A DNA stretch of 64,000 bases, taken from NCBI GenBank assembly GCA_018398815.1, contig CM031615.1, positions 57,985,708 through 58,049,707 of the forward strand, written 5' to 3'. This DNA comes from Conus ventricosus (taxonomy: Eukaryota > Mollusca > Gastropoda > Neogastropoda > Conidae). Made by a program: the position numbers and the translations under genes. Shown piece by piece: positions 10,901 through 13,900 of this stretch (position 1 is its first letter; each line of letters opens with the position of its first letter). The notes beneath the pieces were generated by a model. It made no database searches. It had not been told where the DNA came from and saw only the letters and a program-made list of their open reading frames with translations.

Positions 10901-13900
10901 ACAACTGACATACAATAGTGATGGAAACTTACCTCCCGTCTCCTTGAGGATGCCGTGGAGGAGAGGGGGAGAAGGGTCGGGTGGGGCGGGGGGGGGGGGG
11001 GGGGGGGGGGGCTTTTTCTGGACAAATATTCCTCTCGTCTGAATGTTCTGTGCTACTAATTCTCATTCTCTCTCTCTGATCACTTTTTATCTTTTGTCTG
11101 ACCATCGCGCACGGTCTTTCTGCTTTTGTAGCCTGTTCACCTTTGCTTTAAGAAAATCTTACAATCTATTGTAGTATCTGACTAAAAGCTACTGAAACTG
11201 TACAGAGGGGACACCAGCGGTCAGCGTCAATTTCCCTGTGTGGCCATCTGAAATATTTTTTGTCGCACCGTTGTGTTCATAATGAATTTTCTACTTTTTT
11301 TTTTTTTAACTCTCGGGGCTGAACGTGAAGTGTGTGTGTGGGGGGGGGGGGGGGGAGAGGTTGCAGGCAGTTGCCGTTCTATCAGACTGAAGGGCATCAA
11401 GAGATGAGCCTCAAACCATGGTAATGACTCAATGTTTTTCACAGGCAGGGACCTCATCTCTCTGGACGGCGACAGCCCTAAAGTGGCCCCTTGGATGGTC
11501 GACTGCACTTTCATAATAATAATAATGATGATAATAATAAGAAAAAGAAGAGAGGAGAAGAAAGAAGAAAAGAGAAGAATGATAAAGAAAGGTAAGGTAA
11601 TGTTGCTTACAGCCCAGCCAACCGCAAAGGGCCATATCAGGGTTTTCACCGCGCCGAGGTCGTCTAAGTTGTTAAAAACAATAATAATTCGCACAACCCT
11701 GTAAAAGACACCTTCTAAAAGCACACCGGAAATTTTTCTGCAGATTCTTAGATGAAAAATGCTTCAGACATTCAAAGATCGTCAGGTGAGACATCTCTGA
11801 ACAAGGTTTTCAAGGAGTCTGCTGTGAAATGTTTATGTCTACATCGTGCAAGTCCCATTACTCTAAAAGTACATGCTTCACTGTAAGTGGCACATGACAT
11901 GGAATGCACCACGCAGGATGATAATAATAATAATGATCATAATAATGATAATGACAGTAATAATGATAATGATTATAACAATAATAATATTGATAATAAA
12001 AATAATTATAATAATAATCATGATAATGAACTCACCTCCTGTCCCAATCTTGTCCTCTCAGGGTAGTTGTGCCTGACCAACAGAAGGTGGGTTTACAATG
12101 CAGACAGTACAAGGTGGCTTACTTCAGACTCATTTTGTAAGGGGCAAGCACGTTGGAATTAGACAGAGACGGATAAACGAATGCATACGTTTTTTTTTAT
12201 GATTTTTTTTTTTCAAAAGAAAAAAAGAAAAGCATTTTTTTAACCGTGAGGAAGGAAATGCAGGCTACTATACAGACAAAACATCAAAAAATGAACGGGG
12301 CGGGAAAAAATCTGACATAACATAATAATGTGACTAAATAGGGGTGACAGGGGTCGTGGGAGGCGATTAAATTATAAACCTACCATCACGAGTCAAACTC
12401 AAGCTTGTTTTCGACCATCTCTACCAATACCCAAACGCACGCACTCTAAGATCGACAGCAAGAGGTACAGAGCTGGAATTAAAATTCGTTTAGGGAGATC
12501 ATCGTTCCACTCAAGGACGCCAAAGCAAATCTAAGATTTCATCAATCATAAGCAGGAAAATGGCACAAGCATTGGTACTACAACCGATCAAAGATATTTT
12601 TAAAGGCAAACAGACAATCAGAGAGAGAGAGAGAGATAAGATAAGATAATGTTGCTTATAGCCCAGCCGACCGCAAAGGGCCACATCAGGGCTGGAGGAG
12701 AGAGAGAGAGAGAGAGAGAGAGAGAGAGAGAGAGAGAGAGAGAGAGAGCAGTACAACAACCAATCAAAGAAATTCAGAGACAGACAGACAAAAAGAAACG
12801 TGGAGCACCACCACAACATACCCATCCACCCCACCGACATCTGCCACCCCCCCTTCCCTCCATCTCTCCCTAATCCCACCCCCTTCCCTTCAAAGCAGCA
12901 AATCAGACCCAGCGAGATACCACAAAGCCACAACATACCCATCCACACTCACCGACACCTGCCCACCCCGCCCATCTCTCCTCCATGCCACCCCCTTCCC
13001 TTCAAAGCAGCAAATCACAGACCCAGCGAGGTACCACAAAGCCACAACATACCCATCCACACTCACCGACACCTGCCCACCCCGCCCATCTCTCCTCCAT
13101 GCCACTCCATTCCTTTGAAACCAGCAAGTCACAGACCCAAACAGGTACCACACAACCACAAAGTATCCATCCACCCTCGCCGACACCTGCCCCCCCCCCC
13201 CCCTCCCCATCTCTCCTCCATGCCACCACCCCCTTCCCTTGAAACCAAGTCACAGATCCAAACAGGTACCACACAACCACAACGTACCCATCCATCCCCA
13301 TCGACACCTTCCCTACCCCATCCCCACCCCCATGCCACCCCTTTCCCTCCAAAGCAGCCAGTCACAGACCCGAAGAGGTACCAGTCGTAGGCCAACGTCA
13401 GTACATCATCTCCGCCGGCTCCAGACTGGGTGGACCAGGCCGTCGGCCCACAGCGACAGGCGGAGGAGGGAGATGAAGAGGGGGTGCGGTCCCACCCCGA
13501 GATGCAGTGCACCAGCATGCCGTGTTTGCCTGTTGGACGGACGGGGAACGAGGGAGGGGGGGGGGGGTGACGTATATGGTGAATGATGGTTTATTGTGTT
13601 AAGCTTTACAAGCCCGTTCACAAGACCGGAAGACGATGGGCTGGGGGACTGTGTAGACACAAAAATTAGAAATAATCACCAACACGTTACAAGAAGTACG
13701 TCGCGATTGGATCCCAGATCACGGAATTGTACAAACCGTTAAATACAACGATAATTCAGGTCACTGTCAATCGGATTTTCCAGACGCACATCAGTATATG
13801 ATGTATGTGGTACACACAAGAGACGCCACGTTTGAAAGCCAGATAACATGGTTTACCTGGAAGACACGCTGGGATAAGGGATGCATGCTTTGTAAGGAAT

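Follow-up and report, generated by a model that had tools for sequence, protein, structure and literature searches.

We analysed a 64,000-nucleotide stretch of Conus ventricosus contig CM031615.1 (positions 57,985,708 to 58,049,707; here called the window), on whose minus strand an MTMR14-like gene extends from approximately 49.8 kb to 4.1 kb. The catalytic exon of this gene runs into a minisatellite of the type known as a 'mirage', which here consists of five head-to-tail repeats of the exon end, the donor (5′ splice site) and approximately 100 nt of intron. The copy nearest the exon is likely spliced and the other four are likely inert intron, a reading to which we assign a probability of approximately 0.86. 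An intact MTMR14 paralog, here called the paralog, adjoins the gene (C21:58056122-58104420).

Structure and origin of the array

Tandem Repeats Finder (TRF), run on the 64-kb window, reported a tandem array at 12810-13383 with a period of 114 and 5.0 copies. Alignment of the units (Table 1) placed their starts, each a TGG on the minus strand, at 13383, 13271, 13150, 13036 and 12922. The resulting spacings of 112, 121, 114 and 114 agree with a sequence-only reading of this stretch, which had described four further copies of the exon end 112-121 bp apart, and the array is confirmed as real. The same reading had proposed tandem duplication across the exon-intron boundary, and this too holds, as unit 1 starts 14 nt inside the exon (TGGTACCTCTTCGG) and crosses the 5′ splice site. 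The peptide at the start of each copy is WYLFG in units 1-3 and WYLAG in units 4-5, as had been reported, and the copies sit in differing frames relative to the exon. However, the donor sequence GTCTGTGA, which had been expected after each peptide, is exact in only two of the four extra copies, units 3 and 4. The donor GT is retained in units 1, 3, 4 and 5 and has been lost from unit 2, which carries ATCTGTGA.

Could this be an ordinary intronic minisatellite with a chance likeness to the exon, or a duplication introduced in assembly? The genome is rich in arrays, with TRF covering 18.3% of 65 myosin flanks, but either explanation is scarcely credible. When compared with unit 1, unit 4 scored 110, and the highest scores among 1047 background windows on each strand were 31 (minus) and 32 (plus), which excludes chance. 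The units differ from one another by 8-18% and are therefore not one sequence assembled twice. The 22-mer TGGTACCTCTTCGGGTCTGTGA, allowing up to seven mismatches, was found at only these five sites when both strands of the window were searched. Upstream of TGG no likeness to the repeat continues into the exon, as anchored extension scored 0 in all four comparisons; a repeat reaching further into the exon was thus ruled out. No second array of the same sequence was among the matches listed by a DNA search of the genome that skips very common words; these matches were the exon of the paralog (75%) and short stretches of 42-47 nt.

The exon is the probable source of the array, because its 14 nt code for WYLFG, which is conserved, and because units 2 and 3 still match the end of the paralog's exon at 13/14 positions. 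The exon itself matches it at 11/14, unit 4 at 10/14 and unit 5 at 9/14, and the exon differs from units 2-3 across the 14 nt only synonymously. A segment with its left breakpoint 14 nt inside the exon would have been duplicated in tandem. Subsequent expansion by slippage or unequal exchange is suggested by the 92% identity that units 3 and 4 share, compared with 82-84% (ungapped) between unit 1 and units 2-5. The corresponding junction in the paralog lacks an array of this kind and shows just a (TTA)n tract, 79 nt beyond it.

The snail array belongs to an already known class, with the mirages of amphioxus and a variable number tandem repeat (VNTR) of human ABCA7 as precedents. The sections of the published accounts used here describe amphioxus mirage minisatellites in Adh3, the globin genes BflGb6 and BflGb9, TnC and PGBD5 (PMC3087553; PMC3902484). 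The snail array likewise consists of tandem units that span the exon-intron boundary and include exon sequence, and only some of its copies keep the splice signals; in amphioxus many copies, not all, keep them, and the units of BflGb6 are 81-100% identical. The hosts differ, a cephalochordate and a mollusc, as do the unit lengths, which are 10-72 bp in Adh3 and 150-160 in the globins against approximately 114 bp here, and the snail array is known from the sequence of one assembly. In ABCA7, as far as the portion of that study drawn on here goes, the VNTR of intron 18 lies beside an exon and takes in its donor, as the donor of exon 18 is the first of the array's GTs (PMC5954066). Unlike the snail array, it has a 25-bp unit in at least 12 copies, varies in length between people and affects splicing. 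It also begins at the GT, whereas the snail unit includes 14 nt of exon and that of a myosin locus described below (L065) 50 nt. Tandem duplication across an intron-exon boundary is reported for potato RdRp as well, in the part of the account consulted, where a genomic duplication led to intron gain (PMC4974935). There, one duplication gave rise to a new intron, whereas the snail gene has five copies and introns that match those of the intact paralog; its exon-intron order equals the paralog's, and no new intron bounded by duplicated sites was found in it. No mollusc case of such arrays appeared among the titles and abstracts returned by limited searches of the open-licence literature.

Table 1. 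Features of the MTMR14-like gene and its arrays, and other exon loci with arrays across a splice site (slashes mark splice junctions)
Feature	Position	Strand	Basis or description
Catalytic exon, MTMR14-like gene (HCISGWDRTP ... LTLAYDWYLFG)	13370..13529	-	tblastn with human and Babylonia MTMR14; frame-shift-aware alignment to P0121
GT of 5′ splice site TTCGG/GTCTGTGA, phase 2	13368..13369	-	intron position in MTMR14 proteins and same-genome paralog; frame fits micro-exon
Minisatellite, 5 units (112, 121, 114, 114, 117 nt)	12806..13383	-	TRF and unit alignment
Unit 1: 14-nt exon end with donor, then 98 nt of intron	13272..13383	-	unit alignment
Unit 2: WYLFG copy, GG/AT in place of donor, long G-run	13151..13271	-	unit alignment
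Unit 3: WYLFG copy with GTCTGTGA; cryptic donor TCG/GTGAGT at 13066	13037..13150	-	alignment, donor scoring
Unit 4: WYLAG copy with GTCTGTGA; cryptic donor TCG/GTGAGT at 12952	12923..13036	-	alignment, donor scoring
Unit 5: degenerate copy (TGGTATCT, GTCTGATT)	12806..12922	-	unit alignment
37-nt micro-exon GTCAG/G HNYPERTRLGQE/GTGAGT	12036..12072	-	profile search; both splice signals
Next exon CAG/ATCCTGCCGTTC (ILPFCFSILPKL), phase 0	9342..9420	-	protein matches and frame-aware alignment
Second array, 75-80 bp units with CAG/GTGAGG	37048..39074	-	TRF
L065, myosin donor	G000:C27:743412-743597 + ~400 nt beyond		65-nt spacing
L060, donor			53-bp period, five GTA[GA][GA]T sites including the exon's own
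L097, donor			33-bp period, 9.8 copies, CAGGGAATTATTCCCCAG/GTAAGT
L046, myosin acceptor	G000:C29:51278783-51279070 region		37-bp period, 17 CTGTCAG including the exon's own
L062, acceptor			43-bp period, AACAACA after four acceptors including the exon's own
L066, acceptor			49-bp period, two copies with 18/19 exon nt in common

The gene and the position of its donor

The gene had been called MTMR14. Its signature, exon order and intron positions support that family, although strictly it is a diverged tandem paralog of MTMR14: it matches its Babylonia ortholog P0121 at 72% and Babylonia's own MTMR14 (P0122) at approximately 45%. It shares with MTMR14, which is a phosphatidylinositol-3,5-bisphosphate 3-phosphatase, the HCISGWDRTP (C-X5-R) signature, the order of exons and a phase-2 intron that precedes a 37-nt micro-exon ending in phase 0, and departs from it in the sequence of the micro-exon, which reads HNYPERTRLGQE. 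The closest proteins are from Neogastropoda. A Pfam scan of Babylonia and Nucella proteins with the Myotub-related model gave 20.1 bits for Babylonia P0121, 21.1 for Babylonia MTMR14 and 20 for Nucella P0209; as the accepted MTMR14 also falls under the curated cut-off of 25, these scores are not decisive. No paper on MTMR14 in gastropods was found in a literature search, no transcripts of the species were recovered with window-exon queries (none of the matches listed was closer than 72%), and an Rfam search of the window gave 0 matches.

The catalytic exon opens at the acceptor CAACAG/GC, and its donor had been placed at TTCGG/GTCTGTGA. This placement is borne out by a shared intron position, by the phase-2 junction of the paralog and by a micro-exon that restores the frame. 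Among 272 fetched proteins with the motif DW[YF]LFG, 262 go on with H; the remaining 10 diverge right after LFG, which is consistent with an intron at that position, and among them is the Nucella ortholog P0209, which terminates at LFG. In the paralog, the exon ends with TTTGG/GTGAGA in phase 2 and is followed by a 37-nt micro-exon (HGLPDRVSKGQE, then /GTGAGA) and by CAG/ATC in phase 0. The window gene contains a counterpart of HGLPDRVSKGQE, overlooked in the sequence-only reading. When a profile built from 55 distinct micro-exon segments was used, this counterpart scored 27.5, higher than anything else on the entire minus strand, and the runner-up in the same intron scored 13.9. As the micro-exon lies at 12072-12036, the conflict between the phase-2 donor and the phase-0 acceptor at 9420 disappears; the donor at 13369, the micro-exon and the exon at 9420 join in frame, and the donor is placed where it had been. 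The alternative donors TCT/GTGACT, GGG/GTGGCA and TGG/GTACGT (13287) were dropped once the phase clash had been resolved. Comparison of these sequences supports the view that the intron position after WYLFG is ancestral.

Several other features were seen in the gene. At 33999-34358, approximately 250 bp of TTAGGG-type telomeric repeat is flanked by TTACTCCCCCGGATCG-type arrays on one side and by inverted CGAGCCGGGGAGTAA-type short arrays on the other. A dispersed element with the core GGCCCTTTGCGGTCGGCTGGGCTATAAGCAA, perhaps a SINE, starts on the minus strand at 39210, 30632, 17233, 12685 and 11636. These five copies share one orientation and none was found in the other (up to 8 mismatches, in the window); one lies just downstream of the array. 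Intronic reading frames are transposase-like at 31687-33390 (minus), presumably of the Tc1/mariner type, and retroelement polymerase-like at 23959-25255 (plus).

Predicted splicing across the array

Of the donor copies, the one nearest the exon is predicted to be favoured by exon definition. Its use would leave the reading frame unharmed, since exon end and donor are both retained in the first copy. Some points weigh against a spliced first copy followed by inert ones. With a donor position-weight matrix, CGG/GTCTGT is the weakest of the gene's 11 donors (-0.49; the others 0.12 to 6.29), and on the same matrix units 3-4 hold a far stronger TCG/GTGAGT, twice, with a score of 4.52. Arrays of this kind need not be inert, as a longer ABCA7 donor VNTR goes with more skipping of exon 19 and lower expression in the part of that study used here (PMC5954066). 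Finally, the gene may be decaying, given four frame breaks, and splicing would then no longer be selected. The U1 pairing of CGG/GTCTGT is mid-range (-7.0; range -4.3 to -11.9).

The array might instead act as a splicing switch, with stronger or downstream cryptic donors giving longer or truncated isoforms, or with G-runs enhancing the weak donor. We regard this as unlikely. Both TCG/GTGAGT and TGG/GTATGT, which occurs three times (units 3-5; score 2.0 with the same matrix), outscore the main donor, and the ABCA7 study, in the same part, reports that the donor one unit on serves as a cryptic site and that retention of one unit is seen (PMC5954066). Against this, the first stop met on reading through in the frame of the exon is a TGA at 13131-13129, within the donor copy of unit 3, so that longer extensions would be truncated. 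Amphioxus mirages, moreover, are reported to splice normally in the sections consulted (PMC3087553; PMC3902484). The first 580 nt of the array intron contain 34 GGG-runs, whereas 11 further introns of this gene contain 3-9; a count of 34 was reached by 0/219 background windows, and the array intron also has three G4-type motifs. In other genes G-runs aid a weak donor, and here they may possibly do so.

A further explanation is that the window gene is a decaying tandem paralog, the array reflecting relaxed constraint at the exon end. This is less probable than the mirage reading and we hold it to be rather unlikely, though more plausible than a switch. Frame-aware alignment to Babylonia P0121 revealed clear single-base deletions at approximately 13479, 13426, 13400 and 29525, three of them in the catalytic exon, whereas in the 11 exon loci of the paralog (1235 aligned nt) the sole called break falls in flanking intron and is discounted. 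The shifts that were also called where the 18.75 kb exon borders its intron, and in the C-terminal exon, whose similarity is weak, are not reliable. In a search of the genome with P0121, the matches listed were confined to the exons of this gene and the catalytic exon of its neighbour. However, the four breaks, all in conserved exons, each resemble the loss of one C, which fits assembly error too, and both error and decay are possible. Moreover, 10/14 aligned exon stretches of the gene have no break, at 34-85% identity to P0121. The six other arrays described below lie at exons of myosin and kinesin genes, in which the matched coding sequence reads through, bar an over-extended array or intron part.

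Exon junctions and minisatellites elsewhere in the genome

The same structure was sought at 96 other exon loci, comprising 65/69 myosin-head matches (C27:753172, C12546, C762 and C265 were left out), 20/116 kinesin matches (96 left out) and 11 exons of the MTMR14 paralog. Flanks of 300 nt were taken for kinesin and 1500 for the others. Edges of hidden Markov model (HMM) matches served as proxies for exon edges. At six of the 96 loci a minisatellite holds an exon end together with its splice site, a donor in three and an acceptor in three (Table 1); the exon ends of these six were deduced from splice signals and reading frame. The rate of 6/96 has a 95% interval of 2.3-13.1%, and with myosin and kinesin alone it is 6/85 (2.6-14.7%); the array in the window is an extra example, outside this rate. 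As in amphioxus, several genes are involved, and both ends of exons are affected.

The cleanest example of the class is L065, whose unit consists of the last 50 nt of the exon, the donor CAAG/GTATGT and 15 nt of intron. Six unit starts were found, and the donor 10-mer is identical at seven places. In L046, each copy contains a pyrimidine tract, CTGTCAG and then a likeness of the first bases of the exon. A 67-bp x 2.9 array in the intact MTMR14 paralog (L011, G000:C21:58056122-58056340) reaches the acceptor of another exon; it includes almost no exon part and was not counted, and counting it would give 7/96. Three further candidates were rejected: L023, in which the match is over-extended into a CA repeat, L038, with a TG repeat after the donor, and L100, where the array starts in the intron.

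The sequence-only reading had seen the same event twice within the gene, the second time at 36.9-39.1 kb, and had suggested that exon-intron junctions are prone to seed minisatellites. The second occurrence is only suggestive. The exon end near 39581 matches a unit of the second array at 24/32 ungapped positions, a score reached in 10/2000 shuffles, but 6/1023 background windows also reach it, two being the exon itself, two the edge of the array and two a single unrelated place at approximately 57.8 kb. The event has nevertheless occurred more than once, in the myosin and kinesin genes, which is not what had been meant.

That junctions are prone was not upheld in the window or in the genome sample. 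Arrays of period at least 20 cover 9.5% of myosin flanks (17,725 of 187,135 nt), 9.9% of kinesin flanks and 12.0% of those of the MTMR14 paralog. From this coverage 18.9 of 192 exon edges would be expected in arrays, and 6 were found (P(≤6) = 0.0003); with L011 included there are 7/192 (P(≤7) = 0.001). This deficit should not be over-read, since HMM edges are not always exon edges, yet there is no excess. In the window, 1/21 junctions lies inside a TRF array, compared with a circular-shift mean of 3.3, and 9/21 lie within 100 nt of one, compared with a mean of 7.0 (P = 0.29). No significant excess was found in this test at 0, 15, 50 or 100 nt, using junction coordinates and a TRF list that were entered by hand with nested TRF rows omitted. 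It is thus very unlikely that features of junctions, such as G-rich sequence after the donor, seed minisatellites more than other intron does, even though the structure recurs at six sampled loci and the GGG-runs and G4-type motifs of the array intron could promote slippage. In addition, no G4 motif was present in the section of the second array that was tested (39090-37988). Two other repeats were seen in the window: at 15944-16023 the donor CCACAA/GTAAGT is directly followed by a (TG)n tract, and at 52959-53387 there is a 54-bp x 7.9 array with 99% matches and more than one open frame.

Should the sampled rate hold, such arrays would not be curiosities of amphioxus but would arise commonly as by-products in a genome rich in minisatellites, and automatic annotation of this genome would often misplace exon ends. 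We propose tentatively, at somewhat less than even odds, that several per cent of junctions, i.e. thousands, lie in arrays of their own exon ends, some with 7-17 near-identical sites, and that the spliceosome reliably takes the exon-proximal one. Identical splice sites would then compete in natural genes, raising the question of what singles out the correct site from equivalent ones, which RNA could answer. If this is true, nature has replicated an experiment on splice-site choice in this genome, which would also keep supplying material from which new exons and introns could arise.
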